Shown piece after piece: positions 11,792-58,800 of a DNA stretch of 64,000 nt. Each line of letters begins with the position of its first letter. The first letter of the stretch is position 1. Made by a program: the position numbers and the translations under genes. The stretch is from Terriglobia bacterium (GTDB taxonomy: Bacteria; Acidobacteriota; UBA6911). The notes beneath the pieces were generated by a model. It was not told the origin of the DNA. It saw nothing but the letters and a program-made list of their open reading frames with translations, and ran no database searches. The stretch is from the NCBI GenBank assembly GCA_020072565.1, contig JAIQGI010000035.1:1-64000 (forward strand), written 5' to 3'.

Positions 11792-11921
11792 GGGGGACTC
11801 CTGTTTGAGGTCCAGCCCGCACAAGTTCTCTGCGATTGAATTTATCGGGAGATCCTGAAATGAACCATGCCTGCAAGCGACATATTCGAATCGATTATGA
11901 CCCGGTTCCTGTTCTCCGGAT

Positions 11922-40035: not shown

Positions 40036-40083
40036 TCAGGAAACGGGGCCGGCGGCAGCCCAAGCAGACTGCGACTGAAGTCA

Positions 40084-40257: not shown

Positions 40258-40546
40258 GAGTTGCACCATCACAAAGCGGTAGAAATCAGCACCACTTTGA
40301 AGCGAAAGGACGAGACCCTCGAGATCTGCCATCGGCTCGCAAGGGAAAGGGGAGCCGGCATGTCTTACCACTGGCGCGAGTCTGCGAGTGATCACTCGTA
40401 AATTCGCGCTGACCTGTTGGCGTTGACGGCATCCCACTGCGGTGCTATAAGGGGTGCCGGGATGGTAGCGGCGGCCGGAATGCCCATGCGCGAAGGCCCG
40501 GCCGGAAAGAGCCACTCGGGCATGCCGCAGGGCATGGCGAATTAAG

Positions 40547-41476
40547 ATGACGCGAGAAATCTCAGACACCAGGCTCGTCGGTCGTGAGGGCAAGGCGGAG
40601 AACACCATCGTCGATGTCGGCGGCGTCCTGGTCGGCGGGATGGACATCGTCGTGATGGCTGGCCCGTGTTCCGTGGAGAGCGAGGAACAGCTCCTCGCGA
40701 CAGCCATCGCGGTGAAGCGGGCAGGAGCAAAAATCCTGCGGGGCGGGGCTTTCAAGCCGCGCACTTCTCCCTACAGCTTCCATGGCCTGCATGAGGAAGG
40801 GCTGAAGCTTCTGGCCGAAGTGCGCCGCGCCACCGGCCTACCGGTGGTCACGGAGGCGATGGATACGCGACACCTGGACGCCGTGTGCGCCCATGCGGAC
40901 ATGATCCAGATCGGATCCCGCAACATGCAGAACTACACGCTGCTGGAGGAGGTTGGGAAGCTTCGCCTGCCGGTGCTTTTGAAGCGCGGGTTCAGCGCCA
41001 CGATCGAGGAGTTCCTGCTGGCCGCAGAGTACATTGCCAGCGGAGGCAACGGTCGGATTGTCCTGTGCGAGCGGGGCATCCGCACCTTCGAAACGTCGAC
41101 GCGAAACACACTGGACCTGAGTGCGGTGCCCCTGCTGAAGCGTTGGACCCATTTGCCCGTAATCGTGGACCCGAGCCACGGAACAGGACTGTGGTGGCTG
41201 GTACCGCACATGGCCCGCGCTGCCGTGGCGGCCGGCGCCGACGGCCTGTTGGTTGAAGTACATGTAAATCCTCAAGAGGCGCTGAGCGACGGAGAGCAAT
41301 CGCTCCGTCCTGAGACGTTCGAGCGCATGATGAATGATATACGGCCTGTGGCGCACGCCATCGGCCGGTGTTGGCAGCTGGGGACCGGGGTCGCCTCCAA
41401 AGATGACTTGCCTGGTAAGCCGCAGCCTATGGCGGCGCGACTCGCAAATGCTCGTGAGAAGGATGAACTTGTTTGA
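40547..41476 (+). CDS. aroF: 3-deoxy-7-phosphoheptulonate synthase (DAHP synthase, type I beta)
   Basis: A 309-residue protein of the KDPG-aldolase/DAHP fold. Family signatures are all present: [82 protein letters not shown] and the metal-binding VDPSHGTG. It lacks the N-terminal ACT/ferredoxin-like domain found in feedback-controlled relatives, starting about 30 residues before the core. It condenses phosphoenolpyruvate and erythrose 4-phosphate, the first step to aromatic amino acids, in the cytoplasm. It stands alone; other aro genes are not in the window. The C-terminus [18 protein letters not shown] extends past the barrel. Confidence 0.93.
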
Positions 41477-42044: not shown

Positions 42045-43679
42045 GTGTTGAGTTCCGTCAAATTGGAGCTTCTGTCGCTTCTGCTCTTGGCTTTCGCCGC
42101 CTCTCAGAACAAGCCCGCTCCACCGGTGTTCACCGACGTCACGAAGCAAGCCGGAATCTCATTCAAACATTGCCTGGGAGACGACGAGATCAGCTCGATC
42201 GTCGAGGCTACGGGCTCGGGCTGCGCATTTCTGGACTTCGACGGTGATGGTTTGATGGACATCTATGCCGTGAACGGCCGCTATCTCGAGGGCATCAGCG
42301 ACCCGGATTCCCGTTTCAAAAGCGCTCGAACCCCCAGCCGCCTGTACCGGAACAAAGGCGATGGGACCTTCGAAGATGTTACCGAGAAGGCGGGGGTGGG
42401 CGCTTCCGGGTACGGCATGGGAGTTGCGGTCGGCGACTTCGACAACGACGGCCATCCGGACATTTATGTGACGAATTTCGGCAAGAACATCCTCTATCAC
42501 AACAACGGCAACAGCACATTCACCGATGTTACGGAGAAAGCAGGCGTCGCATGCGGTCAGTGGAGCGTGGGCGCCATCTGGATCGATTATGACAAGGATG
42601 GATACCTTGACCTGTTCGTCGGCAACTATCTCGAGTTCGACAGCAAGTACCGGCTTTTCTACGAGGCGGAAGTGTATCCCGGCCCTCTGTCTTACCCCGG
42701 ACAGTTGTCAGTCCTCTACCACAACAATCACGACGGGACCTTCACTGACGTCAGCGCAAAGGCGGGCATAAATAAGAAGGGTCGAGCCATGGGAGTCCTG
42801 TCGGCGGACTATGACGAGGACGGCTGGCCTGACATCTTCGTCGCCAACGATGCCATGCAGAACTACATGTACCACAACAACGGCAACGGCACATTCACAG
42901 AGGTCGGAATCGAGTGTGGCGCAGCATTCGGCCAGCACGGCAATGCGGTCTCATCCATGGGAGGCGATTTCGCCGACTTCGATGGGGACGGCAAGCTCGA
43001 CCTCGTGGTGCCGGCCATGAATTACATCGGGATTTTCCGAAACCTGGGCCGCGGGCTGTTCGAGGAAATTTCCGTCTCGACGGGCGTGGCAAGGGTCAGC
43101 GCCCAGTTCTGGTCCTGGGGCGGTGATTTCATGGACTTTGACAACGATGGCTGGCCGGACCTCCTCATCGCAAACGGAGATGGTCATCGCCTTTCTGAGA
43201 AGCAGGAACAGCTTCTCATGAGAAATGTCGCAGGACCGAACGGACAGCGTGTGTTCGTCGATGTTTCCAGATCTGTCGGCCCCTACTTCGATACCAGGAG
43301 TGTGGCCAGGGGCCTGGCTACCGGCGATTGCGACAACGACGGAGACCTGGATTTCTTCGTTCTGAACATCGACCAGCCGTCCGTCCTCCTCAGAAATGAC
43401 GGAGGCAATAGAAACAACTGGCTTACGCTGCAACTAATCGGCACCAAGAGCAATAGAGATGGCGTGGGCGCCCGGGTGATCGTGCGTTCAGGCGATTTCA
43501 CTCAGGTGGCAGAGAAAATGTCGGCAAGCAGCTACCTTTCCCAGAACGATCCCAGGCTCCACTTCGGGCTCGGCCAGCGCACCATGGTAGATGAGGTAAC
43601 CATCCAGTGGCCCAGCGGAAAAACGCAAAAGCTGAAGGAGGTGAAGGCAAACCAGTTCCTCAAGGTGATTGAACCATGA
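42045..43679 (+). CDS. Secreted FG-GAP/ASPIC-UnbV (CRTAC1-like) protein
   Basis: The start is GTG at 42045 or TTG one codon later, after AAGGAG; 544 residues with a short hydrophobic leader (LELLSLLLLAFAAS). Seven or so FG-GAP/VCBS repeats follow, each with a calcium-loop DxDxDG-type motif (FDFDGDGLMDIYAVN, DFDNDGHPDIYVTN, DYDEDGWPDIFVAN, DFDGDGKLDLVV, DFDNDGWPDLLIAN). These form an integrin-like propeller. The last 80 residues are an ASPIC/UnbV domain (GDFTQVAEKMSASSYLSQNDPRLHFGLG). Such proteins are exported and their function is poorly known. The stop overlaps the next ATG (ATGA), so translation is coupled with the haem protein. Confidence 0.85.
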   Translation: MLSSVKLELLSLLLLAFAASQNKPAPPVFTDVTKQAGISFKHCLGDDEISSIVEATGSGCAFLDFDGDGLMDIYAVNGRYLEGISDPDSRFKSARTPSRLYRNKGDGTFEDVTEKAGVGASGYGMGVAVGDFDNDGHPDIYVTNFGKNILYHNNGNSTFTDVTEKAGVACGQWSVGAIWIDYDKDGYLDLFVGNYLEFDSKYRLFYEAEVYPGPLSYPGQLSVLYHNNHDGTFTDVSAKAGINKKGRAMGVLSADYDEDGWPDIFVANDAMQNYMYHNNGNGTFTEVGIECGAAFGQHGNAVSSMGGDFADFDGDGKLDLVVPAMNYIGIFRNLGRGLFEEISVSTGVARVSAQFWSWGGDFMDFDNDGWPDLLIANGDGHRLSEKQEQLLMRNVAGPNGQRVFVDVSRSVGPYFDTRSVARGLATGDCDNDGDLDFFVLNIDQPSVLLRNDGGNRNNWLTLQLIGTKSNRDGVGARVIVRSGDFTQVAEKMSASSYLSQNDPRLHFGLGQRTMVDEVTIQWPSGKTQKLKEVKANQFLKVIEP

Positions 43680-45181
43680 AGAAGTGGTTTGCCGCCCTTG
43701 CCTTCCTCCTGGTGGCGTTTCAACCTGGAATGCCGGTGACATCCGGCCAGTTGAACTGCCCCATCGTTTTTACCCAGGTGCCCTTCAAAGCAAAATTGCA
43801 CGGCGGCCAGGCCGGACGGTTTCTCCTGAATGGAGCTGCCGACAAAGGAAGCCGCATCGTTCTTCTGGCACGCCATGGTTCTCCTGCCGTTCTCACCCCC
43901 GAATTTGCGGCGGCGGCCGATCCTTCCGTCTCCTTCGATGGAAAACGGATCCTGTTCTCCGGAAAGCGTACGGCACAGGATAAGTGGGACGTCTGGGAGA
44001 TGGATCCCGACGGCAAGAACAAACGACAGATCACCAGTGGGTTTGGAAATTGTCGTGAGCCCGAATACCTCGCACGAAGTTCTATCACGCCCCCGGATTT
44101 CAACGACAAGGTGCGTTGGATTACATTCATATCGGACGCAGCCAGCACTTACCAGGAAGGGAGACCGGAGCTTGCCACATCACTCTATGCCATGAATCTG
44201 GAGCCCGTCGGAGGACGTGGCTTTGTGACCCGGCGGAGTACCTTCAACCTTTCGAGCGACTTTTCACCAGCCGTTCTTCAGGACGGCAGGGTGCTCTTCA
44301 CAAGCCGGCAGAAATACGCAAACAGCCCGGAGAAATTTCCGCTGCTGGCTGCCAACTGGGATGGCACCGGCCTGAACCTCTTTTGCGGGACCGATCAAGG
44401 TGCGTATTTCAAGACGATGGCTTGTGAGATGCCGGACCGGACGCTGGTGTTCGTGGAATCTGCCAATCCGACGGACTCCGGTGGGCGGCTTGCCAGGGTC
44501 TCTTTTCGACGCCCCCTCCACAGCTATGAACCGCTGAGCCGGGGAACAGGACTGTATCTGTATCCGCATCCTTCCCCCGACGGCACACTCGTCGTTTCTT
44601 TTTCTTCGGGAAAGGAAAGCTACGGCATCTATTTGTTTGATTTTGCGAAGGGAATGCCGGGAGAGCAGATCTTCGACGACCCTAAGTGGGAGGACTTGGA
44701 TGCACAGGCGGTCGTGCCGAGACCGGAGCCGCAGGGATTGATCAGCGCCGTCGTTGATTCCCTCACCTGGGGTCATCTGCACTGTCTGAGCGTTTACGAA
44801 TCAGACATGCCCGAGGTCAATGCGATCCGAAAGGGCGATGTGAAGCGCGCCAGATTTGTCGAGGGGGTGCCTGCCTGCGCCACGCAAAGGAGGTCACCAT
44901 CACAGTCCATTCCCGACGCTGGAACGCGCCTCCTCGGGGAAGCGCCCGTCGAGCCGGATGGCTCGTTTTTTGTCGAGGTGCCGGCCGACACTCCCTTTCT
45001 GATCCAGCTTCTGGACGAAAAAGGGAAGGTCTTGGAGACAATGCCCCGATGGGTCTGGGTCCGGCGTGGAACCAGCCGCGGATGCATCGGATGTCACGAG
45101 AACAAAGAGTTGGCGCCCGAGAACCGCGTCTCGGACGCGGTACAAAAAGCCGTGCCGAGGGTTCTCCGGCAAAGGAAGTAG
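43676..45181 (+). CDS. HzsA-like propeller protein with one c-type haem motif
   Basis: A 501-residue protein with a Sec signal (MKKWFAALAFLLVAFQPGMPVTSG). The middle is a TolB-like propeller (SFDGKRILFSGKRTAQDKWDVWEMDPDGKN, with PHPSPDGTLVVSFSSG further on). It resembles the hydrazine synthase alpha-subunit family. At residue 470 a single haem-binding CIGCH appears in RGCIGCHENKELAPEN. Most relatives outside anammox bacteria have no shown reaction, so hydrazine synthesis should not be assumed. It overlaps the upstream ASPIC gene by four bases. It is presumably a periplasmic electron-transfer or oxidoreductase partner of the hexahaem protein. Confidence 0.78.
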   Translation: MKKWFAALAFLLVAFQPGMPVTSGQLNCPIVFTQVPFKAKLHGGQAGRFLLNGAADKGSRIVLLARHGSPAVLTPEFAAAADPSVSFDGKRILFSGKRTAQDKWDVWEMDPDGKNKRQITSGFGNCREPEYLARSSITPPDFNDKVRWITFISDAASTYQEGRPELATSLYAMNLEPVGGRGFVTRRSTFNLSSDFSPAVLQDGRVLFTSRQKYANSPEKFPLLAANWDGTGLNLFCGTDQGAYFKTMACEMPDRTLVFVESANPTDSGGRLARVSFRRPLHSYEPLSRGTGLYLYPHPSPDGTLVVSFSSGKESYGIYLFDFAKGMPGEQIFDDPKWEDLDAQAVVPRPEPQGLISAVVDSLTWGHLHCLSVYESDMPEVNAIRKGDVKRARFVEGVPACATQRRSPSQSIPDAGTRLLGEAPVEPDGSFFVEVPADTPFLIQLLDEKGKVLETMPRWVWVRRGTSRGCIGCHENKELAPENRVSDAVQKAVPRVLRQRK

Positions 45182-45509
45182 AGGCGTTGAAACGCAGAGA
45201 CCTGATAAATGAACACGAATGATTGTGCCGCGCCTTCGTCGTTCGATTATGGGCGAATCCCCAACCCCGGCCTCACGGCCGGGGCTATTGATTGCGGCGC
45301 CTTCGGCGCCGGATTCACCAGGTATCCACCGGACTCCCTTTAGCCCTCGTGTCGAGGCCCGAAGGACCGGCAATGAATAAGCCCGGCCGTGAGGCCGGGA
45401 ATACGAGGGAACCAAAGATCGAGCGCCGAAGGCGCGGCACTTCTGGCGGATCTTCGGGCCCTTCGGAATCAAGGCTTAGAGGTTCACTTAGAGTGCCTGG
45501 TTAATAATC
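45182..45509. other. Intergenic region largely made of GC-rich hairpins
   Basis: About 330 bases holding the second cluster of CCCGGCC-type palindromes (listed separately) and little else. The run of exported-protein genes continues on both sides, so these stems would lie inside or between transcripts. Confidence 0.6.
45265..45440. repeat. Second cluster of CCCGGCC-type hairpins
   Basis: Perfect stems: CCCCGGCC-TCAC-GGCCGGGG (45265-45284), CGGCGCC-TTC-GGCGCCG (45295-45311) and CCCGGCC-GTGA-GGCCGGG (45382-45399), then GCGCCGAAGGCGC near 45423-45435. The first and third face opposite ways, as in paired REP (BIME-like) arrangements. Confidence 0.7.
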
Positions 45510-48017
45510 ATGCATCGTGCTCGTATCCTTTCATTGGGGCTTGCAACGCTGATTGCGCTGGCGTCTTCGGCTCTCCTTCCTGGCGATGCGTTCCAGGCGT
45601 CCCGCGATGGAAGCACGAGGGCGCGGTACGCCGTTCCGGAAGACGACCTCTACAAGTCGCCGATTCAAATGGCTCTTTCGGGAGACGGCCGCCGGCTTTT
45701 CGTTGCTTGCGAGAATAGCGGCGAAGTGCTGGTCATCGACACCGCGGTCCGCAGAGTTGTAAGCAGCATGAGGACGGGGAGAAATCCGTTCGGCGTTGCG
45801 CTCAGCCCCGACGAGAGCCGTCTCTACGTCAGCAACCGCTGGGACGACAATGTAACGGTTTTCAATGTAGGAACGATGGAGGTCATCGGGCTGATCCCTG
45901 TGGGGGATGACCCTCACGGCCTGGTCACGGATGAGACCGGAAGATACTTGTTCGTCGCAAACCTGGGCACCGACGACGTGTCGGTGATCAATACTGCAGA
46001 TTTCAAAGAGATCAAAAGGCTCGAGGCGGGCCGTTCACCCTTCGGAATAGCCTTTTCTCCGGACCACCGGTTCTTGTACGTGTCCAGCCAGCTGTCAGTC
46101 CCCGTCCCATTTCGCACGCCCCCGATTCTCGAACTCACGGTCATCGACGCAAAGCGCCAGGTTGTAGCCGGGAGGCGTCAATTGTTCTCCACCCTCATCG
46201 GACAGGATCTTGCCGTTTCCCCGGATAACCGTTTCGTTGTTGTGGCGCTGGAACTGCCCAAAAACCTTCTTCCGGAAACACAGGTGTACCAGGGCTGGAT
46301 GGTCACTCACGGGTTTGCCGTTGCCGAAGCCGGACCGCAGGGGCGGGTGGCCTATTTCCTTCTGGATGAACCGAACCTCTATTATGCCGATCCCTTCGGC
46401 GTCGCGTTTTCACCGGATGGCCAGAGGCTCTACATCTCATCGAGCGGTGTGAATGCCGTCACCGTGATCGATATGAGGAGAGTGGCCGGACTTTTGCAGG
46501 CTCGTGACGGAAAGATCGGGCTGTCCGACGAAGCCATCGGCCTCAACGCCCGCAACCTGGGCCTCAGCTCTGAATATGTTCTGGCCCGCGTCCCTACCCA
46601 GTGTAATCCCAAGGATATGGTCGCTTCACCCGACGGCCGCTGGATCTATGTCGCCAATAGGCTCTCCGATTCCATCCAGGTCATCGATGCCGGGAACAAC
46701 CAGGTTGCCGGTGCGATTGACCTGGGAGGGCCCAGCATCGAAACGGTGTTGCGCAGGGGTGCCAGGCTCTTCAACTACAGCAGCATCAGCTTTCAAAAAC
46801 AGTTGAGCTGCAACACCTGCCACCCCGAGAATCACCTCGACGGCCTGGTCTACGACATTGTCGCGCCGGGAGACGGAATCGGGCGGAATCTGGTCGAAAA
46901 CAGGACGATGAGAGACATAGCGGACACGGCCCCCTACAAGTGGTCAGGAACCAACCCGACGCTGCAACGCCAGGACGGACCAAGGGCTGCCCAATTGTTC
47001 TTCCGCTCCCACGGTTTTGAGAAGGATGACCTCGAAGCGACGGTCCATTTTATCGAATCACTTTCGTTAATGAACAGCCGGTACGCACCAGCAGACGGGC
47101 GGCTGAACGAGTTCCAAAGGCGGGGCAGAGCAGCATTCGAGCGGGCTTACACGAAAGACGGGCGCTACATCCCTGTGGCCAATCGATGCATAACCTGCCA
47201 TCCGGCTCCTTATTACACCGACTGCATGACTCATGACGTCGGGACTCAAGCGAACACGGACGACAGCGGGGAGTTCGACACGCCTCAACTCGGTGACATC
47301 TACGACACTTCGCCGTTTCTGCACGATGGCCGCTGCTATTCGCTGGAGGAAATCTGGACGGTCTTCAATCCGGGCGACACTCACGGCGTCACCAACGACA
47401 TGGCGAAGGAAAACTTGAACGAGCTGATCGAGTACATCAAAACTTTGTGGGTCGGCGAGCCGGTGCGTGACAAGGAGCTCTTCGCTTCTCTGTTCGTAAA
47501 GTCCACCACGGGGAACTACCGGCTAAGAGTAGAGGACCTGGATTCCCTCACCCGACCCGGCGCGAAATACATAGGCAATGAAGTCTGCGGAACCTGCCAT
47601 GCGCGAGAGTACAAAAAGTGGCTGGGCACCAGACATTCACGAAGCTGGGTGATGCTGGGCATGACTGAGAAAGCCGACCGGGTCAAGTCGCATTTCAACG
47701 TGAAGTCATTGAGTCCCCAGAATAGCGCGATCTGCCTCAAGTGCCATGGGACGGCCGCAGGTGCTCCCCCGGAATTTCGGCTGTCCACGTTCCACGTCGA
47801 GGAAGGAGTTCAGTGCGAATCCTGTCATGGACCGGGGGAACAATACGCGACCGAAGAGGTGATGAAGAACAAACAGCAGGCGATAGCCCTGGGATTGCGA
47901 ATGCCTACAAAAGAAGTTTGTCTGAACTGTCACATGGCCAAACCATCGCACGAATTCATGAACAAGAAGCCGTTCGATTTCGAGGAGTCGTACAAGAAGA
48001 TTGCCCATATGCATTAG
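45510..48017 (+). CDS. Hexahaem cytochrome with N-terminal YVTN-type beta-propeller
   Basis: An 835-residue protein with an N-terminal signal (RILSLGLATLIALASSALLPG). Residues 50-420 are YncE/YVTN-type propeller repeats (GRRLFVACENSGEVLVIDT, SRLYVSNRWDDNVTVFNVG, GRYLFVANLGTDDVSVINT). Six haem motifs follow: CNTCH (434), CITCH (560), CGTCH (693), CLKCH (742), CESCH (769) and CLNCH (804). The 434-620 part looks MauG/di-haem peroxidase-like; the 690-835 part looks like a cytochrome c554-type tetrahaem block. This suggests a periplasmic oxidoreductase that passes electrons along a chain. The substrate is unknown. Confidence 0.85.
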   Translation: MHRARILSLGLATLIALASSALLPGDAFQASRDGSTRARYAVPEDDLYKSPIQMALSGDGRRLFVACENSGEVLVIDTAVRRVVSSMRTGRNPFGVALSPDESRLYVSNRWDDNVTVFNVGTMEVIGLIPVGDDPHGLVTDETGRYLFVANLGTDDVSVINTADFKEIKRLEAGRSPFGIAFSPDHRFLYVSSQLSVPVPFRTPPILELTVIDAKRQVVAGRRQLFSTLIGQDLAVSPDNRFVVVALELPKNLLPETQVYQGWMVTHGFAVAEAGPQGRVAYFLLDEPNLYYADPFGVAFSPDGQRLYISSSGVNAVTVIDMRRVAGLLQARDGKIGLSDEAIGLNARNLGLSSEYVLARVPTQCNPKDMVASPDGRWIYVANRLSDSIQVIDAGNNQVAGAIDLGGPSIETVLRRGARLFNYSSISFQKQLSCNTCHPENHLDGLVYDIVAPGDGIGRNLVENRTMRDIADTAPYKWSGTNPTLQRQDGPRAAQLFFRSHGFEKDDLEATVHFIESLSLMNSRYAPADGRLNEFQRRGRAAFERAYTKDGRYIPVANRCITCHPAPYYTDCMTHDVGTQANTDDSGEFDTPQLGDIYDTSPFLHDGRCYSLEEIWTVFNPGDTHGVTNDMAKENLNELIEYIKTLWVGEPVRDKELFASLFVKSTTGNYRLRVEDLDSLTRPGAKYIGNEVCGTCHAREYKKWLGTRHSRSWVMLGMTEKADRVKSHFNVKSLSPQNSAICLKCHGTAAGAPPEFRLSTFHVEEGVQCESCHGPGEQYATEEVMKNKQQAIALGLRMPTKEVCLNCHMAKPSHEFMNKKPFDFEESYKKIAHMH

Positions 48018-48040
48018 GCAATCCGAGGGATGATGTAGGT

Positions 48041-48187
48041 CAGGCGCCGAAGGCGCCTTTGGAGTGCGGCGGCTGGCCGCCGCTTTGTCAGGTGTCCTGC
48101 GACAAAGGCACGGTTTGCCGGTCCGTACTAGGATTTTGAAAGCGGCGCCATGGCGCCGCACTCCAAAGCGCCCTGCGGGCGCAGCAA
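48041..48187. repeat. Palindromic repeat, long copy
   Basis: A GCGCC-GAA-GGCGC stem is followed by TTTGGAGTGCGGCG (48058-48071), which pairs perfectly with CGCCGCACTCCAAA (48154-48167), and GCGCCCTGCGGGCGC. The same element with a shorter centre lies at 51937-52044 in the same orientation. This copy holds about 40 extra central bases. Confidence 0.8.
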
Positions 48188-48237
48188 TTCCGAGACGCTG
48201 ATTGAAAAAAGCGTCGTCAAGGGTTGGGGGACACGCG

Positions 48238-49383
48238 ATGAAGAAAAACCTCTTGTTAGGTATCCTCCTTTTCGCAGCACTTGCTGCAATGGCCGCCGAG
48301 GAGCCCCTTCCCAGGGTGTACAGGTACTGGGAGTCGTTCCACAAAGCGGACGGTCTGCCGGCAGACAAGGCCTTCTCAATCCTCGTCGACGGAGACCGCA
48401 TCTGGGCCGGCACTGAAAGCGGACTGGCCTGTTACGAGGATGGCAAATGGCGCTACTACGGGGTAAAGGAAGGCCTGGCTTATCCCGCCGTTCTGAGCCT
48501 TGCCCTCGATACTGCCAGTGGGGACATCTGGGCTGGGACGATGAAGGGATTGTCGCGCTTCTCGGCCGGCCGTTTTGAAAACTTCACGCAATTCAATAGC
48601 GGGCTGCCGAACGACGTCGTATTCGGCGTCTGCGTCGAAAACCAGAACGTCTGGACTGCAACCACAGCTGGGACGGCGCGCTTCCGGGTGCGCGAGAAGA
48701 AGTGGGATGTCTATACTCCTGCGAACTCTCCTCAGCACGAGCCCTGGGGATACTTTGTAACCTATGGAGACGGCCGTGTCTACGCGGCTCTGTGGGGCGG
48801 CGGTGTCCTGGAGTTCGACGTCGCCACGCAGGCATGGAGATCATGGCTCGACCCCGACGGAGAAATGGAATACGACGTCTTTCGCGATGACGGGCTCATC
48901 CACAACATCACAACCAGCGTAAGCTATGTCGAGAAAATTCTCTGGATTGGCACCTATTTCGGCATGAGCCGGTATGACGGCAGGGAATGGCGCGGATACA
49001 TGGATCACGACTCCGGGCTAGCCAGCAACTTCATTAACTTTGTCAAAGCGAGAGGCCGTGTCGCCTGGGCGTGCACGGACAAAGGGCTTAGCGCCGTCAA
49101 CGGAGACACGAACCGCTGGGTCACTTATACTCCTGCTGACCCTGCCTGGAGCAGGAACCAGGTCCCGCCGGCCGAGCCGATCGAAGGCACGAAGGGCTGG
49201 GTTGCAAAAGTCTATAACGATAACAAGCTCCTGGAAACGATAAAGCTGGAACATGGCCTCGCCAACAACCACATCTATGGCGTCGATTTTCAAGGGGACG
49301 ATGTGTGGGTTGCCACCTCCAAAGGGGTAAGTCACGGGGCGCTAGTACAGAAAAAGGCAAAGGAGGGAAAGTCCCATGAGTAA
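48238..49383 (+). CDS. Secreted two-component-regulator-propeller-like protein
   Basis: The ATG at 48238 opens a signal peptide (MKKNLLLGILLFAALAAMAAEE), giving 381 residues; the frame extends 12 codons further up. Repeats of the form GDRIWAGTESGLACYEDGKW, GDIWAGTMKGLSRFSAGRFE, NVWTATTAGTARF and ILWIGTYFGMSRYDGREW match the Reg_prop units found in the sensor part of hybrid two-component proteins. Here they occur alone, without kinase or membrane segment. It overlaps the next gene by eight bases and is translationally coupled. A ligand-sensing or partner-binding role beside the binding proteins is an inference. Confidence 0.75.
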   Translation: MKKNLLLGILLFAALAAMAAEEPLPRVYRYWESFHKADGLPADKAFSILVDGDRIWAGTESGLACYEDGKWRYYGVKEGLAYPAVLSLALDTASGDIWAGTMKGLSRFSAGRFENFTQFNSGLPNDVVFGVCVENQNVWTATTAGTARFRVREKKWDVYTPANSPQHEPWGYFVTYGDGRVYAALWGGGVLEFDVATQAWRSWLDPDGEMEYDVFRDDGLIHNITTSVSYVEKILWIGTYFGMSRYDGREWRGYMDHDSGLASNFINFVKARGRVAWACTDKGLSAVNGDTNRWVTYTPADPAWSRNQVPPAEPIEGTKGWVAKVYNDNKLLETIKLEHGLANNHIYGVDFQGDDVWVATSKGVSHGALVQKKAKEGKSHE

Positions 49384-50728
49384 ACTGGGGAAGCTTCGGT
49401 TTCTGGTAGTACTGGGACTGCTCACCTGCGGCCTGCTGTTTGCGCTTGGCCAACAGACACCCCCCGGGAAGCCGCTGGATCAGAAGTCTTCTGACGAAAA
49501 GAAGAAGGGGGAGATAATCTACGGAAACACACCCGAGGATCTCAAGCCCTTCGCGAAGTATGTCAGTGAGCCTTATAAGAACTACTGGGTCCCGAGCGAT
49601 TCTCCCGTCATGTTCTGGGGGCCGGGGCGCGACAAGCCTGAGCCTGAAGTCGACACGGTCAAGATCGGCGTAATTGCCCCGGTCGCTCGAAGCTACGAAA
49701 CCTACATCGGCCAGTCTGTGCTCCGCGGAATGGAGATGGCGCTCGATGATGCCAACGCCAATGGAGGCTATAGAGGCAAACGGTTCGAGGCCGTCTTGAG
49801 AAACGATACCGGGCTCTGGGGTGCATCTGCCAACGAGGTCGTCTCCCTGTCCTATGACGACAAAGTCTGGGCCATCATCGGCACCGTCGACGGTGCGAAC
49901 ACTCACATCGCGATTCGAGTTGCGCTGAGAACGGAAATCCCAATCATGAATGTGGCTGATACGGATGCGACCCTGGTGGAAACCAAAATACCCTGGGTCG
50001 TCCGCGTGATTCCGGACGACAGGCAGATGACCTATACGATCGCATATTACGTCTACAAGCAGCTGGGGCTGAACAGCGTTGCGATTCTCCGGGCCAGCAA
50101 TCGCTACGGGCGCATCGGCGTGACGCAATTCAAAAAGGCTTCCATAAAACTCGGGAAACCTGCACCCATCGAGACCAATTACGAGCCCAACTACGAAAAC
50201 GTAAACCCAGACTTCGAAATCCAGTTGGAGCGTCTCGCAAAAGTGCAGCCGGACGCGGTCGTTCTTTGGGCCGATGCCGAACCGGCCGGCGCGCTCGTGA
50301 AACAGATCCGGGACCGAGGGATGAAATTTCCTATTTTCGCATGCGAGCGCATCGTGCATCCCGATTTCCTCAACGCGGCGGGAAAGGCGGCCGAGGGAGT
50401 CGTGGCCGTGTATCCCTTCGATCCGGAGGCCAAGAACCCGAAGTACGCTGAGTTCAGGAAGCGCTACGAGGAACGGTATCACGAGGCGCCGGATTGCTAC
50501 GCGGTCCACTCGTATGACGGGACCATGATGACCGTCGAGGCGATCCGGAAAGCGGGTCTGAACCGGTACCGCATACGCGATGCCCTTGCGGCGATGAGCC
50601 ATTGGGATGGTGTCTCCGGCCCCATCGACCTGGACCTGGCTTTGAGCAATCGCAGGCCGGTGATTGCTGCTTCTGTCAAAGACGGGAAATTTGTTTTCGG
50701 CATTCCCAAAATGAATCGCACGTTTTAA
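49376..50728 (+). CDS. Periplasmic binding protein, Leu/Ile/Val (Peripla_BP_6) type, first of a pair
   Basis: A 450-residue protein with AAAGGAGGG before its ATG and a signal peptide (LGKLRFLVVLGLLTCGLLFALGQ). After a charged 60-residue spacer the type-I binding-protein fold starts with VKIGVIAPVARSYETYIGQSVLRG, then MALDDANANGGYRGK, VWAIIGTVDGANTH, IMNVADTDA, WVVRVIPDD and YAVHSYDGTMMTVEAI. It is well aligned with the next gene's product, including the unusual lead FWGPGRDKPEP. No permease or ATPase genes are nearby, so it may serve sensing, or deliver to a transporter elsewhere. Confidence 0.83.
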   Translation: MSKLGKLRFLVVLGLLTCGLLFALGQQTPPGKPLDQKSSDEKKKGEIIYGNTPEDLKPFAKYVSEPYKNYWVPSDSPVMFWGPGRDKPEPEVDTVKIGVIAPVARSYETYIGQSVLRGMEMALDDANANGGYRGKRFEAVLRNDTGLWGASANEVVSLSYDDKVWAIIGTVDGANTHIAIRVALRTEIPIMNVADTDATLVETKIPWVVRVIPDDRQMTYTIAYYVYKQLGLNSVAILRASNRYGRIGVTQFKKASIKLGKPAPIETNYEPNYENVNPDFEIQLERLAKVQPDAVVLWADAEPAGALVKQIRDRGMKFPIFACERIVHPDFLNAAGKAAEGVVAVYPFDPEAKNPKYAEFRKRYEERYHEAPDCYAVHSYDGTMMTVEAIRKAGLNRYRIRDALAAMSHWDGVSGPIDLDLALSNRRPVIAASVKDGKFVFGIPKMNRTF

Positions 50729-50781
50729 GAAAATTCGAAATTCGAGATTGTTTTGAATCTCGAATCGTTGAGGACATATCA

Positions 50782-51933
50782 ATGTGGGTGTGGCTATTTC
50801 TGACGGTCTTGCCGCTGATAGTACAGGGGCCGCAGCAACCGCATTTTGACTTCAGCAAAGCCGGATCTGGATTCTATGGTCCCGGACGCGAGTTGCCGGA
50901 CCCGGTGGGCTTGACATCGGTTCGGATCGGCGTCCTGGGACCGGGGAACGATGCCGAAGGCCTGCAGATGCGCACCGGCGTCCGGATGGCTTTGGATGAA
51001 ATGAACCGGAGGGGAGGGTACAAGGGCATCCCTTACGAAATGGTGTTCCGGCCTGATGATGGACCGTGGGGCACGGCTGCAAAGCAGGTTGTGGATCTCG
51101 CCTACGAAGATAAGGTCTGGACGATCATCGGCGGTCTGGACGGCCAGCGCACTCACATCGCCGAACTGGTCGTCTCCAAAGCCTGGGTTCCGGTGGTCAC
51201 GCCGTCCGCCGCGGACATGTCGATCGACTACGCAAACGTGCCGTGGGTTTTCCGTTGCGCACCAGCCGACAGCCGCGAGGCGGAACTGCTGCTCGACTTC
51301 GCCGGGAGACAAGGATACCAGCACGTAGTTGCTTTGACCGAGGCGCAGCGAGATGGACACACAGGTTTCTTGCGACTCCAGGAAGCGGCGGGCCGCAAGA
51401 ATATCCATCTCGATGCTCATTGGCAGTTTCCTACGGGCAATCCGGAAGCAGTGGTCCCGCGCCTTCTCGGCATCGATTCCGACGCGCTGATCATCTGGGG
51501 CAGTCCCGGACCGTCCCTCACTTTGCTCCGCGCCATTCGGGCTGCGGGCATAAAGACTCCCGTACTCGGCCCTGCCTCGCTTGCAAGTGCGGAAATCACC
51601 GCTGATTCCTCGTGGATTGGAGAACTGGTGGTCGCAGCGCCTTACGATCTGAGTCGGCACGATCCGGACTTGCTCGCGTTCAGCGTGCGGTTCAAAGATC
51701 TCACGGGCATGCCCCCCACCCCAATCGCCCTCCTTTCCTACGACGCAGCACTTCTTGTCACCAAAGCCGTTGCGACCGCAGGTTTGAACAGAATGCGCAT
51801 TCGCGATGAACTGGCCCGGATGTCCTATGACGGCATTGTCGGAAAAACCCAATTCAATTCGCTGCGCGGGAGTATCAGAGAACCTGTCATTCTCAGCTTC
51901 AGGAACGGTCGCTGGGAACGCCTGAACAACTGA
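50782..51933 (+). CDS. Periplasmic binding protein, Peripla_BP_6 type, second of a pair
   Basis: The ATG at 50782 (GAGGA upstream) opens a short signal (MWVWLFLTVLPLIVQG), giving 383 residues; the open frame runs further up but overlaps the previous gene. It is a tandem paralogue of the first: FYGPGRELPDP, VRIGVLGPGND, MALDEMNRRGGYKGIP, VWTIIGGLDGQRTHIAELV, WVFRCAPAD and LSYDAALLVTKAV. It lacks the charged spacer and is more diverged in the ligand-binding loops (TPSAAD against NVADTD), so the pair may bind different ligands. It ends the coupled gene set, followed by a palindromic repeat. Confidence 0.83.
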   Translation: MWVWLFLTVLPLIVQGPQQPHFDFSKAGSGFYGPGRELPDPVGLTSVRIGVLGPGNDAEGLQMRTGVRMALDEMNRRGGYKGIPYEMVFRPDDGPWGTAAKQVVDLAYEDKVWTIIGGLDGQRTHIAELVVSKAWVPVVTPSAADMSIDYANVPWVFRCAPADSREAELLLDFAGRQGYQHVVALTEAQRDGHTGFLRLQEAAGRKNIHLDAHWQFPTGNPEAVVPRLLGIDSDALIIWGSPGPSLTLLRAIRAAGIKTPVLGPASLASAEITADSSWIGELVVAAPYDLSRHDPDLLAFSVRFKDLTGMPPTPIALLSYDAALLVTKAVATAGLNRMRIRDELARMSYDGIVGKTQFNSLRGSIREPVILSFRNGRWERLNN

Positions 51934-51936
51934 ATC

Positions 51937-52044
51937 AGGCACCGAAGACGTTTGGAGTGCGGAGGCTTGCCGCCGCTTTGTCGCTCGGCCAGATGAAAGC
52001 GGCGCCGAGGCGCCGCACTCCAAAGCGCCCTTCGGGCGCTGATT
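51937..52044. repeat. Palindromic repeat, short copy
   Basis: TTTGGAGTGCGGAGGCTTGCC, with CCGCCGCTTTGTC just after, pairs with GGCGCCGAGGCGCCGCACTCC and the A-run after it. It ends in GCGCCCTTCGGGCGC (perfect six-base arms). It matches the 48041-48187 element in order and orientation. It begins within five bases of the stop of the second binding-protein gene. Confidence 0.8.
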
Positions 52045-52159
52045 GTGTACACCCCGGCCTACCGCTTGCCCGCTCAAAGTAAAATGTTCTATAAGTAACA
52101 AGCTGCGCTGGATTCGGACGTACGGATTATCAATGTTGAGGAAGCCAAGGAGATCGCCG

Positions 52160-55100
52160 ATGCATGACCTAATTCGGAGGAGCGGCAGGGCAAAACTCGG
52201 TATCTTTTTCGCAGCCTTGGTGCTGGGCCTCGCAGCAGCAACGCTCCCCCTTCAGCCGCAGGTGAAGATCACCCAAACGGCACGAGAAAAGTCCGCGGAA
52301 GCCATCCGGCTGAACAACCTCGGAGTTGCCTACATGAACCAGCGGCGCTCCGAGGCGGCACTGAAGAATTTCCAGCAGGCCTACGCCCTCGATCCCAACC
52401 TGCTCGCAGCCCGCCTGAACGAGGGCATCGCGCTGCTCGACCTCCAGCGGGCCGAGCCAGCCGAGCAGGTGCTCGTTAAGGCGACCGAGCAGGAGCCGAA
52501 TGACCCGCGGGCCTGGTTCAACCTTGGCTTGCTGCGCAGGAAACTTGACGAAACCGAGCAGGCTCTGGCTGCGTTTGGCCGAGTGGCCCAACTCGATCCC
52601 AACGATGCCGACACCCACTATTTCCTGGGGGCGCTCTACCAGAGTGCCAGGAAGCTGGACCTCGCCCTCGCGAGCTACCGGCGGGCACTTGAACTCAACC
52701 CGTTCCACGTCTCGGCGCAATTCGGCCTGGCGAATGCCTACCAGCGCATGGGCGACAGTGAGGAAGCACGCAAGCAACTGGACCGCTTCCAAAAGCTCTC
52801 GCAGGATAGGCTTGGAACGCCAATCGGAACCACCTACGGCGATCAGGGCAAGTATTCGCTCGCCGAGGACGCGCGACTTCCTGTCGGCGCTGCGGCCAGG
52901 CCGATTGCGGTTAAATTCGTTCCTGTGCCGAGCGCCGAATCCGGCCTGCCCTCTGTCGCCGGAAAACCGGGGCAGGGATCGCCCCGTTCGGGGGCCTGCT
53001 TTTTCGACTATGATAATGATGGACGGGCCGACTTGATGTTGCTGAATGGCGGCGCGGATCGCAAAGTCCGCCTCTATCGGAACGTCGGCGGCCGCTTTGC
53101 AGATGCGACCGCCGGAACTCATCTTGACATCCCCGGCCGTGCTTTCAGCTGTGTCGCCGGCGACTATGACAACGACGGCTGGACGGACGTCGTGGTTGCG
53201 CTGGAGTCGGGCCTCCGACTGTTCCACAACGAGGGCAACGGCGCGTTCCGCGATGTAACCGAGACTTCCGGGCTCGGCGCGGGAATTGCTCGACCGTTTG
53301 CTGTGACCTTTGTCGACTATGATCACGACGGCGACCTCGACCTGTATGCCACCGCATTCGCCGGGGGGCCTAGGCTCTGGAGAAACAACGGCAACGGCAC
53401 GTTCACCGACGTTTCCTCTGCCACGATACCTGTGGATGTTGCGGACGCCCAGGTGAGCACTGTGACGGACTTCGATAACGACCGGGCGGTGGACTTGATT
53501 TTGACTCGCGCCCAGGGACCGCCGTCGTTGTTGCGGAATCCTCGCGAGGGAAGATTCCAGGCCACCCCGCTGTTTGGCGGCGCGTCTCAAACAGCCACCC
53601 GAGGCGTCGTGGCCTTCGACTTCGATAAAGACGGCTGGACAGATGTAGCCTTCACGCATGCCGGGTCTCCGGGATTGAGTCTGTGGCGGAACATCGAGGG
53701 CAAACGGCTGGAATCCGTGCCGCTCCCGAAGTTCAATTGGACCGACGGCTGGGGCCTGACGGCGGTTGACTACGACAACGATGGCTGGGTCGACCTGGCT
53801 GCAGTCGGGTCCGCGGGACCAAAAGCGCGAATCATCCTGCTGCGCAACGAAGGGAGCGCCGGATTCCGAGAGGTCACCCATGCACTCGGCCTTGATAGAG
53901 TGAACCTCGACAATCCGGGCTCGCTGATCACCGCAGATTACGACGGCGATGGCGACGCCGACTTGCTCATCACGCAGGATGGCGGTCCGCCGGTGCTGCT
54001 GCGCAACGACGGCGGGAACAAGAATAATTGGCTGAGGCTCTCACTCAAGGCGCTGGCCGACAACAAGAGCGCCATCGGCACCAAAGTGGAGGTCTTCGCC
54101 GGCGCGCTCTACCAGAAATTTGAAGTGCAGTCCTCCTCCGGCTACCTGGGGCAGAACGCGCCGGAGATTCTGGTGGGCCTCGGTGACGTTAAGGAAGCGG
54201 ACATCGTGCGGATGCTTTGGCCGACCGGCGTTCTACAGGATGAAGTGCAGCTGGCCGCGGATCGGCCACACCAGGTCGCAGAAAATGACCGGCGCGGCAG
54301 CTCGTGTCCCATTCTGTTTGCGTGGAACGGTGCGCGCTACGAGTTCATCTCCGACTTGATCGGCCCGGGGATTGTCGGCCACTGGGTGGCCCCCGGCGAG
54401 CGCAACATTCCCGACCCGACCGAATACGTCAAAGTAGCGGGGCACACTCTCCGTGCGCGGCAGGGGCGGCTGAGCCTGCGGCTGCAAGAGCCGATGGAGG
54501 AGGTTGTCTACCTGGATCACGTGCGGCTGATTGCCGTGGACCATCCCTCCGATGTCGAGATCTATCCCAATGAGCGTTTTGCCAGTGCACCGCCGTTTCC
54601 GGACTTTAAGGTCATTGCCAGCCGGGGGGCGCGCCTGCCTGTGGGCGCCTGGGACGACTGGGGGCGCGACCTCCGGAGCGAATTGCGCGCACGCGACCGC
54701 TCGTACGTCACGGGGTTCCATTCGCTCCCCTTCGCGGGATTTGCCGAACTGCACGGGATCGAACTCGAGCTCGGAGCATGGAATCCGGCGCAACCTCTGC
54801 GGCTCCTCATGCACGGTCTGACGGATTACTTCACCGCCACCTCGGTTTATGCTGCGCACCAGGCCGGAATCGTAGCCATTCCGCCCTATCTCGAGGCGCA
54901 GGACGCCGCCGGGCGCTGGAAGCGCGTCGTCGACGACCTGGGCTTCCCGGCCGGCCTGGCACGTACCATGGTGGCGGACTTGACCGGGCGGCTACCCGCC
55001 GGCACAAAGCGTGTGCGGATCATGACTAACCTGAAAATCTACTGGGACCAAATCCTGCTGGATACCACACCCGAAGAGAATCTCACTCGACTGAACGAGG

Positions 55101-55645
55101 TGCCGCTCGCTAAGGCTGCGCTCGGATTCCACGGTTATCCGCGCGAGGTGCGCGGCGCTCTGTCGAGCGATATCAGCTACGTGTACGAAGACGTCAGCCG
55201 CACCGGACCGTACGCGCGGCACGCCGGGAATTACACACGTTACGGCGACGCACGCGAGTTGCTGGGAGCGGCGGATGACCGTTTCGTAATCCTCGCTTCC
55301 GGTGACGAGATACAGACGGAGTTTGACTCCTCAGGCCTGGCCCCCGTGCCGGTGGGCTGGACTCGCGACTACCTGTTTTATGCGGACGGGTTCGAGAAGG
55401 ACATGGATTTTTACGCGGCGCACGGATACACGGTCGAACCGCTCCCCTTCCATGCCATGCCCGGCTATCCTTATATAGGTGCGGAAACCTATCCGCGGGA
55501 AGGACCCTACCTGCAGTACCAGCTCGATGTGAATACAAGGCAGGTCTCAGACCGCAGTACGTCGAGTTTTCGCTTCGACTACCGGCGGGAGCCCGCCGCC
55601 CTCGAGGCGAAGAGACCGGAGCCGTCCAAAGTGATCCGAAAGTAG
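52160..55645 (+). CDS. Giant TPR / FG-GAP / ASPIC-UnbV protein with unknown C-terminal region
   Basis: The ATG at 52160 has AAGGAG seven bases upstream; 1,161 residues with a basic lead and hydrophobic segment (LGIFFAALVLGLAAATL). TPRs span about 45-210 (LNNLGVAYMNQRRSEAALKNF, then AWFNLGLLRRKLDETEQAL). FG-GAP repeats follow (YDNDGRADLMLLNGG, YDNDGWTDVVVAL, YDHDGDLDLYATA, FDKDGWTDVAFT, YDGDGDADLLIT). An ASPIC/UnbV domain lies about 630-710. The remaining 450 residues are mixed and beta-rich (WNGARYEFISDLIG, MTNLKIYWDQILLDTT) and unassigned. It is a same-strand neighbour of the smaller ASPIC protein at 42 kb. An extracytoplasmic scaffold is plausible. Confidence 0.82.
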   Translation: MHDLIRRSGRAKLGIFFAALVLGLAAATLPLQPQVKITQTAREKSAEAIRLNNLGVAYMNQRRSEAALKNFQQAYALDPNLLAARLNEGIALLDLQRAEPAEQVLVKATEQEPNDPRAWFNLGLLRRKLDETEQALAAFGRVAQLDPNDADTHYFLGALYQSARKLDLALASYRRALELNPFHVSAQFGLANAYQRMGDSEEARKQLDRFQKLSQDRLGTPIGTTYGDQGKYSLAEDARLPVGAAARPIAVKFVPVPSAESGLPSVAGKPGQGSPRSGACFFDYDNDGRADLMLLNGGADRKVRLYRNVGGRFADATAGTHLDIPGRAFSCVAGDYDNDGWTDVVVALESGLRLFHNEGNGAFRDVTETSGLGAGIARPFAVTFVDYDHDGDLDLYATAFAGGPRLWRNNGNGTFTDVSSATIPVDVADAQVSTVTDFDNDRAVDLILTRAQGPPSLLRNPREGRFQATPLFGGASQTATRGVVAFDFDKDGWTDVAFTHAGSPGLSLWRNIEGKRLESVPLPKFNWTDGWGLTAVDYDNDGWVDLAAVGSAGPKARIILLRNEGSAGFREVTHALGLDRVNLDNPGSLITADYDGDGDADLLITQDGGPPVLLRNDGGNKNNWLRLSLKALADNKSAIGTKVEVFAGALYQKFEVQSSSGYLGQNAPEILVGLGDVKEADIVRMLWPTGVLQDEVQLAADRPHQVAENDRRGSSCPILFAWNGARYEFISDLIGPGIVGHWVAPGERNIPDPTEYVKVAGHTLRARQGRLSLRLQEPMEEVVYLDHVRLIAVDHPSDVEIYPNERFASAPPFPDFKVIASRGARLPVGAWDDWGRDLRSELRARDRSYVTGFHSLPFAGFAELHGIELELGAWNPAQPLRLLMHGLTDYFTATSVYAAHQAGIVAIPPYLEAQDAAGRWKRVVDDLGFPAGLARTMVADLTGRLPAGTKRVRIMTNLKIYWDQILLDTTPEENLTRLNEVPLAKAALGFHGYPREVRGALSSDISYVYEDVSRTGPYARHAGNYTRYGDARELLGAADDRFVILASGDEIQTEFDSSGLAPVPVGWTRDYLFYADGFEKDMDFYAAHGYTVEPLPFHAMPGYPYIGAETYPREGPYLQYQLDVNTRQVSDRSTSSFRFDYRREPAALEAKRPEPSKVIRK

Positions 55646-55894
55646 GGGAACCGGAGGAATCAGGCCGGACCTATCCACTCCTTCTCGTCAATGTACGAGT
55701 AATCCGTCCGCGTGACTGGTCTTTAGTCAACTACCCACTTGGCCGTTTCTTGCCAACTGAGCTATTTGCCAGCTCTCGATATCGCGACAAATGCTGCGGA
55801 TTCAGCTATCCAGGGCTGCATCGGCCGACTATAATGTCGGCAAATTCAGATGCACTTTACTTTAGTGAGCGTATTGCCAGCGGAGGATTTCTCC

Positions 55895-58800
55895 ATGATC
55901 GGCAAGACAATCTCGCACTACCGGGTCCTCGACAAACTCGGCGAGGGGGGAATGGGAGAAGTCTACCGGGCGCAAGATTCCCGCCTGGACCGCCCTGTGG
56001 CGCTGAAATTTCTCTCTGCAAAGCAGGTCGATGACGCGGCTGCGAAGCGGTTCTTTCGCGAAGCTCGAGCCGCCTCTGCCTTGAACCACCCCAACATCAT
56101 CACCATCTACGACATCGGCGAGGCTGAGGCCGGCCGCTTTATCGCCATGGAGTTGGTAGAGGGATGCACGCTGCGCGTGGTGGCCGACCTATCGCTCGAG
56201 GAGTTGTACCGTATCGCGGCCCAAGTCGCAAAAGCGCTGCGCGCTGCTCATGCGACGGGAATCGTTCACCGCGATATCAAGCCGGAAAACATCATGGTGC
56301 GCGAAGACGGCTACGTGAAGGTGCTCGATTTCGGGTTGGCCCGGATGGCTCCGGTCGGAATTGATGAGAGCGAAACGGCCACAACCCGAGTTACTGCCGC
56401 GGGAACAATTCTTGGCACGCTGCGCTACATGTCGCCAGAACAAGCGCGCGGAGAATCCGTGTCCGCGCCCTCCGACATATTCTCCCTGGGCATCGTTCTC
56501 TACGAACTGGCCACCGGCCGCCATCCGTTCGCGGCGGCCTCACCGATTGGAGTGCTGCAAGCCATTATGGCCGAGGTGCCCATCCCACCGTCGCGCCTGC
56601 GGCCGGAAATCCCGGCAACCCTGGAACGTCTCATTCTCCAGATGCTGGAGAAGGACGCTCGTCTTCGGCCCACGGCGGCCGCGGTCCAAACAGCGCTCAC
56701 CGAACCCCACGCCATAGCACTGCCCGCCACGGCTGCTGCCCCGCCGCGGCACACTGTGGGGCGGGAAAAGGAAATCCAGCAACTGCATTCCGCGTATGAC
56801 TCAGCACTCGCCGGCCGTGGGCTGATGGCCTGCGTGGCTGGTGAGGCGGGCATCGGCAAGACTACGCTGGTGGAGGACTTCCTGGCAGACCTGACCGCCC
56901 GGGGCAAAGCGTGTGCAATCGGGCGTGGGCGCTGCTCGGAGCGTCTTGCCGGCAGCGAAGCCTATCTGCCGATCCTGGAGGCCCTCGAAAGCCTGCTGCA
57001 CGGCGAGGGCGGTGAAACGGCCTCGCGAATCATGAAACTGGTGGCGCCCACCTGGTACGTACAGGTTGCCCCCCTGGCCCCGGATGACTCTTCCTTCGCG
57101 CGCGCCATGGCCGAGGCCAAAACCGCCTCGCAGGAACGCATGAAGCGGGAGCTGGTGGCTTTGCTGCAAGAAATGTTCCGGGCGCGGCCGCTCGTCCTCT
57201 TCCTGGATGATCTGCACTGGGCCGACGTGTCTACCGTCGACATGCTGGCTTACCTAGGAACCAAGCTTGAATCGATGCGTTTGCTGATGATCGGCGCCTA
57301 CCGGCCCTCCGACCTGCTCTTGGGCAAGCATCCGTTTGTGCCGGTCAAGCTCGAACTGCAGGGGCGAAACCTGGCGCGGGAAATCGCGGTCGAGTTCCTC
57401 ACCCGCGAGGACCTTGCCGCATATTTGGCGCTGGAGTTTCCCGAGCACGGTTTCCCGCCTGACTTGCCCGATCTGCTCCACAGGCGCACGGAAGGCAATG
57501 CCCTTTTCATGGCGGACCTGGTGCGGTACCTGAAGGACCACTGCGTCATCACGCTGCAGGAAGGGCGGTGGATGCTGGCGCAGTCGCTGGAGGAGATCGA
57601 GCGGGAGCTGCCCGAGTCGGTACGCAGCATGATCGAGAAAAAGATCAACCGGCTCAGCGACGGTGATCGGCGCCTGTTGGGTGCGGCCAGCGTCCAGGGG
57701 CATGAATTTGACTCCGCCGTCGTAGCCAAAGCACTGGGCGCCGGGCAAGCGGACTTCGAGGAACGCCTGGAAGAACTCGACCGACTGCATGGCCTGGTGC
57801 GTCTTGAGGGCGACCGCGAGTTGCCGGATTCCACCTTGACCCTCCGCTACTGCTTCGTTCACGCCCTTTACCAGAACGCTCTGTATGGGTCGCTAACGGC
57901 CACGCGCAAGGCCGCGTTAAGCGCCGCGGTGGCAGAGGCCCTCCTTGGTTTTTGCGGGGATCGGACCGCGGAGGTGGCCTCGGAACTGGCGCTATTGTTC
58001 GAAGCGGCCCGCAACTTTGCGCGCGCCTCGGACTTCTTCCTGATGGCCGCCGGCAACGCCCGTCGCGTCTATGCCAATCAGGAAGCGCTCGCCCTGGCGC
58101 AGCGGGCATTGCGCAATGCAGAGAAGCTGAAAGGCGCGGCGCGGCACGCCGGCGTGGCCGCTGCCGCCCTGGTTCTGGCGGAAATCCACCAGACTCTCAC
58201 GCGACTTGAAGAGGCAATCGCCAGTTTTGCCTTAGCCGAGGAGGCCGCACGAAACGGTGGAGACCAACAAACCCAAATCGTGGCCATTGTGGGGCAGGCC
58301 TATGCGCTGTTGTTGTTCAAGCGACTGGAACAGGCCGAGCAACACGCCGCTCGCGCCATGGAAATGGCTCGTCTGGTCGGCTCTGATGTGGCCGTCGCCT
58401 CGGCCGAAGCGCTCCTGGCGGGCATCTGGGGAGGGGCACTGGGGAATAAGCCGGTGGAAGCCGAGCTGTACTTGGATCGCGCGGTCCCCGTACTGCAAAG
58501 AAGCGGGCCGCTGCCCATTGCTCTCAATGCCTGTGCAACTCGGTGCTGGATGCACGAATGGCGGTTGGAACACGCGGAGCTCGAAGAGCTGCTGGAATGG
58601 ACGCGCCCAAGAGTGGATGAGATCGGCGGCTCCTTCTACCTTTTTTTCTATCGTTACATAGGCGCCCTGGATCTCGGAAACCAGGGACGCATCTCGCAAG
58701 GCCTGTTTGCCCTGCGAGAACTCCACCGGCTCACGGAACTGAACGGAGACAGATTCTGGCTCCCTCGGGTGCCGAACGCCCTGGGATGGCTTCACCGCGA

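Follow-up and report, generated by a model that had tools for sequence, protein, structure and literature searches.

An exported gene cluster of the hydrazine synthase family in a Terriglobia bacterium and its possible link to chorismate-derived aromatics

The DNA analyzed in this study is a stretch of 64,000 nucleotides from a Terriglobia bacterium of the Acidobacteriota (assembly GCA_020072565.1, contig JAIQGI010000035.1, positions 1 to 64,000), hereafter called the window. It contains a run of seven forward-strand genes, A to G, of which B and C encode homologues of all three subunits of hydrazine synthase (HZS). We propose, with a probability of about 45%, that this cluster specifies an exported redox complex of the HZS family which is not a hydrazine synthase and which would act on a small molecule, probably a chorismate-derived aromatic compound. 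A broader statement is advanced more tentatively. In it, a widespread exported metalloenzyme system of the HZS superfamily would have its own DAHP synthase and a chorismatase to make a dedicated aromatic compound from chorismate, and would either act on this compound or be wired by it.

The original prediction had assigned the genes to no known pathway. This needs qualifying, as B and C are homologous to a complete hydrazine synthase and clusters of this kind have already been published. They were described in December 2025 as clades I–IV and concluded not to be genes of anaerobic ammonium oxidation (anammox) (Hagglund et al., PMC12758564). Earlier, similar Phycisphaerae clusters had been proposed to mark new anammox bacteria, and a wider family with other substrates was suggested (PMC10732223). 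The text of PMC12758564, as consulted, contains no mention of Reg_prop, TPR-ASPIC, DAHP synthase or chorismatase-like genes, or of Acidobacteriota.

Results

Homology of B and C to hydrazine synthase

The two genes and their parts are as follows (all on the + strand):
43676–45181: B, HZS alpha-like protein with one c-type heme (PF18582, 8.8e-22; PDB 5c2v_A, 2.7e-43)
45083–45097: heme motif CIGCH of B, residues 470–474
45510–48017: C, HZS beta-gamma-like fusion with a C-terminal tetraheme c554 domain and six CXXCH motifs (NF052342)
45657–46685: beta-like seven-bladed propeller of C, residues 50–392 (5c2v_B, 1.3e-42)
46743–47447: gamma-like di-heme part of C, of the MauG/cytochrome c peroxidase type, residues 412–646, hemes at residues 434 and 560 (5c2v_C, 4e-20)
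47547–48014: c554-like tetraheme domain of C, residues 680–835 (PF13435, 3.4e-16)

Protein B combines a PD40 propeller with an HZS_alpha domain (PF18582) and one CXXCH motif; PF18582 occurs a single time in the genome. The best NCBIfam match of B is hydrazine synthase alpha, with 188.7 bits against a cut-off of 800, and its predicted structure (AF2, pLDDT 88.8) matches HZS alpha (5c2v_D) with a Foldseek TMq of 0.82. The label HzsA-like, given to B by the original prediction, was right; the homologues of all three HZS subunits in B and C had been overlooked.

For C, a Pfam-type scan returned a YVTN propeller, a part of the MauG/cytochrome c peroxidase type and c554. The best NCBIfam match is the beta-gamma fusion NF052342, with 194.9 bits against a cut-off of 1250. 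The propeller superimposes on HZS beta with a Foldseek TM of 0.90 (TMt, normalized by target length) and shares with it a family-specific stretch in the sixth blade (KNLLPE... versus KNWLPV...). Both CXXCH motifs of the gamma-like part, as well as Trp478, H564 and H625, are invariant in 95–96 homologues. H564 and H625 are the equivalents of gamma-His229 and gamma-His332, i.e., the bis-His ligation of the gamma-II heme is kept. The MauG and MbnH profiles match the same part at 2.1e-07 and 4e-07.

The c554 part was predicted with low confidence (pLDDT about 30). In a tree, the C of the window forms a supported clade with those of five other loci (labeled L031, L017, L032, L033 and L034). The c554 domain is fused C-terminally in the window, L017 and L031, is encoded by a separate downstream gene in L032–L034, and is present as two N-terminal copies in other clades. 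As it is found fused at either end or as a free neighboring gene, the arrangement argues for c554 as a functional, electron-transferring partner of the gamma-like part.

Compared with hydrazine synthase itself (5c2v; HzsA, HzsB, HzsC), the window has homologues of alpha, beta and gamma, including the two gamma hemes with bis-His ligation of gamma-II. It differs in the added c554 domain and in the partner genes A, D, E, F and G.

A propeller together with a LivJ-type binding protein also characterizes the gene set of alcohol catabolism dependent on pyrroloquinoline quinone (PQQ) (TIGR03863/TIGR03866). A PQQ_ABC-type pathway was rejected: C reaches 146.8 of the 287.3 bits required for TIGR03866, about half of the cut-off, and the cluster is without a PQQ dehydrogenase.

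Loss of the hydrazine synthase active sites

Catalytic residues were mapped by means of a structure-database alignment and an alignment of 96 homologues. The C-terminus of B lies 27 residues past its sole CXXCH, leaving no alpha-II heme domain. No Tyr follows the CIGCH motif, and the equivalent of alpha-Tyr591 is therefore absent; the zinc ligand Cys303 of HZS alpha aligns with Asp240 of B. Clades I–III likewise lack alpha-Tyr591 and Cys303 (PMC12758564). In C, gamma-Cys165 is replaced by Asp489, a position at which 58 of the homologues have Cys and 33 have Asp. The proton donor gamma-Asp168 is lost and aligns with Ala493 beside a gap. The place of gamma-His144 is taken by the invariant Trp478, a correspondence adopted from PMC12758564, our own pairwise alignment being gapped at His144. 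Furthermore, the HAO/HDH family (PF13447) is missing from the genome, which is 98% complete.

Hydrazine synthase activity was rejected on these active-site residues and the missing HAO family: with alpha-Tyr591, the alpha-II heme and gamma-His144, Cys165 and Asp168 gone, no hydrazine synthesis is expected. A working hydrazine synthase outside anammox, in which the gamma-like heme would reduce NO to hydroxylamine and the alpha-like heme would condense it with ammonium, could draw on the adjacent genes for homologues of all three subunits, the beta-gamma fusion like that of Scalindua, the retained gamma-II ligands and the similar Phycisphaerae loci once put forward as new anammox (PMC10732223). 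In view of the replaced residues, including Cys303, the NCBIfam scores of 189/800 and 195/1250 bits relative to the cut-offs and the absence of an HAO/HDH protein, we regard it as extremely improbable.

Conservation of the cluster

The partner genes are as follows (all on the + strand):
42045–43679: A, exported FG-GAP and ASPIC protein, CRTAC1-like (Pfam FG-GAP_3, UnbV_ASPIC)
48238–49383: D, exported Reg_prop propeller without a kinase (PF07494)
49376–50728: E, LivJ-type substrate-binding protein, strongly conserved in the alignment (PF13458, 1.2e-45)
50782–51933: F, second LivJ-type substrate-binding protein (PF13458, 1.7e-31)
52160–55645: G, exported TPR, FG-GAP and ASPIC protein with a large C-terminal region

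All seven open reading frames (ORFs) were recovered at the predicted coordinates, with the starts of D (48238), F (50782) and G (52160) revised. Pfam bore out the predicted domain labels, namely ASPIC in A, HZS_alpha in B, the hexaheme propeller in C, Reg_prop in D, Peripla_BP_6 in both E and F, and TPR/ASPIC in G. Three junctions are indeed tight or overlapping (A/B, 4 nt overlap; D/E, 8 nt overlap; E/F, 53 nt gap). Judged by eye, the N-termini of the A–G products look like signal peptides, suggesting export.

Within the phylum, 14 of 297 genomes gave a strong match to C, and a scan of 84,980 species genomes yielded at least 418 relatives; the best 80 were kept. Gene content was then mapped at 95 loci, many of them on contigs that end early. 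At least seven phyla (Acidobacteriota, Planctomycetota, Bacteroidota, Verrucomicrobiota, Latescibacterota, Omnitrophota and Myxococcota) have these genes in the order A-B-C-D-E-F or in a variant thereof. A is present at 82 loci, B at 79, E at 78, two binding proteins at 64 and G at 28. In 89/95 loci, D comes directly after C, or after C plus c554.

The window-type order is A-B-(C-c554)-D-E-F. Planctomycetota and many Acidobacteriota have B-A-(c554-c554-C)-D-E-F, a second Acidobacteriota type has (DAHP synthase)-B-A-C-D-Rid-E-F, and Bacteroidota have A-B-C-D-Rid-E-DAHP synthase-F-G-A. In many Bacteroidota G comes after F, and in other groups it is found close to the cluster, which marks it as a frequent partner. 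At the Bacteroidota loci L047, L074, L083 and L103, a second A-like gene follows G. At the end of L103, a small ORF resembles an asparagine-synthetase-type protein and has relatives in six other Bacteroidota loci.

Because the gene order recurs across phyla, B, C and their partners are best described as a single conserved exported module, of which the Reg_prop protein D is, by its position, a core member not reported before. Scattering of the genes in relatives, named beforehand as the outcome that would speak against the original prediction, was not seen at the 95 loci, and the gene set is kept within Acidobacteriota too. The proposal of one extracytoplasmic redox and sensing machine stands in part. 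That the set stays together across phyla favors one exported redox machine, and redox chemistry and ligand binding fit the multi-heme chain and the two binding proteins; sensing is unsupported, D being without a kinase in the window. The predicted extent was right for A–G and too short upstream, where the set reaches a DAHP synthase gene. Similarly, the list of missing partners was incomplete, as cytosolic DAHP synthase and chorismatase-like genes are part of the module in many genomes. When 79 flanking or in-cluster ORFs were sorted by Pfam family, no recurrent permease or dedicated partner emerged (the largest family had 4 members), and permeases were not among the commonest families in the sampled flanking ORFs.

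If A, B and C alone formed the machine, D–G and the DAHP synthase would be chance neighbors in this genome. The wide inverted-repeat gaps at B/C, C/D and F/G and the presence of G in just 28/95 loci would suit this explanation. It is very improbable given the positions of D (after C or c554 in 89/95) and G (after F in many Bacteroidota), the frequency of E (78/95) and a DAHP synthase of the cluster type in the window.

Clade III resembles the window in having, in order, an FG-GAP gene, alpha, fused beta-gamma and two ABC substrate-binding proteins, and its alpha, like B, lacks the second heme and the last ~100 residues (PMC12758564). It differs in carrying one extra beta-gamma heme motif, as do the Bacteroidota members, whereas C has four extra motifs at its C-terminus. 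Paludibaculum belongs to the Acidobacteriota. It was placed in clade I (PMC12758564), which differs from the window in its two N-terminal c554 domains, in the FG-GAP gene between alpha and beta-gamma, and in Cys at gamma-165.

Association with DAHP synthase and chorismatase-like Rid proteins

One further gene belongs to the set:
40547–41476, +: DAHP synthase (entry into the shikimate pathway), cluster-type copy (TIGR01361, 387 bits, cut-off 267.75)

This gene lies 568 nt upstream of A. Among the 95 loci, DAHP synthase is co-encoded at 26, a RidA-fold protein at 42, both at 20 and either at 48, in several phyla and at varying positions within the cluster. Gene density predicts 0.61 DAHP synthase genes where 26 were observed (Poisson 4e-33), a figure that is only indicative because the loci are related.

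The genome has four DAHP synthase genes. The copy in the window shares 78% identity with one on another contig (C52), which adjoins a tandem chorismatase-like gene. In a tree, these two group with the cluster-linked DAHP synthase of L021, from another class (support 99/94), apart from the other two copies. In three checked Bacteroidota genomes having a cluster DAHP synthase, it is the sole copy above the TIGR01361 cut-off.

The tandem Rid profile matches chorismatases first (5ag3, 2.3e-20; 4bps (FkbO), 2.5e-16), ahead of any RidA. 5ag3 and 5a3k are Hyg5, listed in the database under an earlier name. Residues described for enzymes of the Hyg5 type (PMC7170507) correspond in 5ag3 to Gly173, Gly240, Cys327 and Glu334. 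They do not vary in either of the two aligned Rid sets, and 24/26 further Rid members have all three motifs. The cluster-linked tandem Rid thus resembles FkbO and Hyg5 in matching both domains and in keeping the catalytic and CH-II residues of Hyg5. It differs from them in that many cluster Rid proteins are single-domain and that, in the genome studied here, the gene lies on another contig. Classed by residues and profile, the linked RidA-fold proteins are chorismatase-like, with a product predicted to resemble hydroxybenzoate, and their co-occurrence with DAHP synthase would tie the complex to a chorismate-derived aromatic, perhaps a hydroxybenzoate. No paper joining CRTAC1/HZS-like clusters with DAHP synthase or chorismatase was found in the literature collection searched.

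Outside the HZS-like clusters, at 9036–12720 of locus L118 (genome G033), genes for a Rid protein, a DAHP synthase and an exported PD40 and TPR protein with one CXXCH stand head to tail. This arrangement suggests that the Rid/DAHP synthase pair also serves other exported heme proteins.

Neighboring genes and repeats

The wider gaps of the cluster (B/C, 328 nt; C/D, 220 nt; F/G, 226 nt) contain imperfect inverted repeats (unstranded):
45266–45399: B/C gap, 41-nt arms, 85% complementary
48040–48182: C/D gap
51951–52042: F/G gap, parts of it matching the C/D element with 93–94% identity

The C/D–F/G repeat was rejected as a genome-wide family, there being two close copies only in the genome. The gene at 61859–62311 (+) looks by eye like one for a REP-associated (IS200-like) transposase (motif PNHVHVLV), possibly related to the palindromic elements.

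A glycyl radical enzyme (PFL-like with Gly_radical) and a radical SAM activase are encoded at 32288–35603 (-). In L031, which is 86% identical, a matching enzyme-activase pair lies immediately upstream of A. As this pair abuts A there, the region at 35.6–42.0 kb of the window would have been either gained here or lost in L031. Within it, the translation of 40081–40764 (-) includes N-terminal sequence of the large exported protein encoded at 37624–40035, as a partial and diverged second copy, and is apparently a duplication remnant. A Ser/Thr kinase with AAA and TPR regions (55850–59419, +) directly follows G; none of the other cluster loci inspected for it has an equivalent.

Discussion

In the mechanism proposed here, the four c554 hemes would exchange electrons with a donor or acceptor in the periplasm, and the electrons would then pass through the bis-His gamma-II-type heme (H564/H625) and the inter-heme W478 to an open gamma-I-type heme (H438). 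At this heme, the small molecule would be oxidized or reduced in the fashion of MauG or cytochrome c peroxidase, and it may then pass on toward the alpha-type heme of B as a second site. Binding of the small molecule, or of its product, would fall to E and/or F, while A, D and G would act as scaffold of the assembly. As for the small molecule itself, the cluster-type DAHP synthase and the chorismatase-like Rid enzyme would most probably supply an aromatic derived from chorismate.

Several observations, besides the relatedness of the loci, weigh against the aromatic part of this proposal. The window cluster itself has no chorismatase-like gene, L031 has no DAHP synthase beside A, and DAHP synthase or Rid was seen in 48/95 loci only, with many contigs cut short. 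The linked Rid proteins score 57.8 bits at best against TIGR04444 (cut-off 325), and no aromatic exporter was found. Among solved structures, amino-acid binders come nearest to E and F in sequence. The binders of the 4ey3 group, which hold aromatic ligands, are not favored among the matches. Assigning a ligand from the nearest solved structures was abandoned, since amino-acid binders and aromatic-acid binders both match without discrimination.

The di-heme part of C shares its fold, its two CXXCH motifs and the inter-heme Trp at the gamma-His144 position with MauG, bacterial cytochrome c peroxidase and MbnH. It differs from these in the bis-His second heme (His625 invariant), in the fusion to a propeller and c554, and in the conserved alpha-like partner. 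The sixth ligand of the second heme is Tyr in MauG and Met in cytochrome c peroxidase. The likeness opens the way to a detoxifying or respiratory reductase, in which electrons would run from c554, a classical electron donor or acceptor, through the gamma-like heme to H2O2, NO or hydroxylamine, and the DAHP synthase and Rid genes would be incidental, as the roughly half of the loci without either in view might indicate. Such an enzyme would, however, have no need for two binding proteins, a Reg_prop protein and an alpha-like subunit kept together, and the DAHP synthase and Rid genes recur in several phyla at differing positions; this explanation appears doubtful. The MauG and MbnH profile matches and the several large exported partners conserved alongside would also suit a protein-modifying or cofactor-making machine that oxidizes residues of A, G, E or F, with the aromatic as a ligand. 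Its standing is lower, and we consider it clearly unlikely, because the scores fall far under the MauG and MbnH family cut-offs and the second heme has His (H625) as its sixth ligand versus Tyr in MauG. An exported complex handling a chorismate-derived aromatic stays our preferred, if tentative, proposal.

The analysis adds D as a core member, G as a frequent partner and a variant with c554 at the C-terminus; its main new result is the association with DAHP synthase and chorismatase-like genes. "HzsA" matches in soil metagenomes, e.g., PF18582 proteins, are no evidence of anammox. How hydrazine synthase, the hallmark enzyme of anammox, arose has long been asked; for its homologues outside anammox, the aromatic link offers a directly testable substrate class. 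If true, this link would point to a redox pathway of soil and sediment bacteria that has gone unrecognized, and to the kind of aromatic-handling heme complex from which hydrazine synthase would have been recruited.

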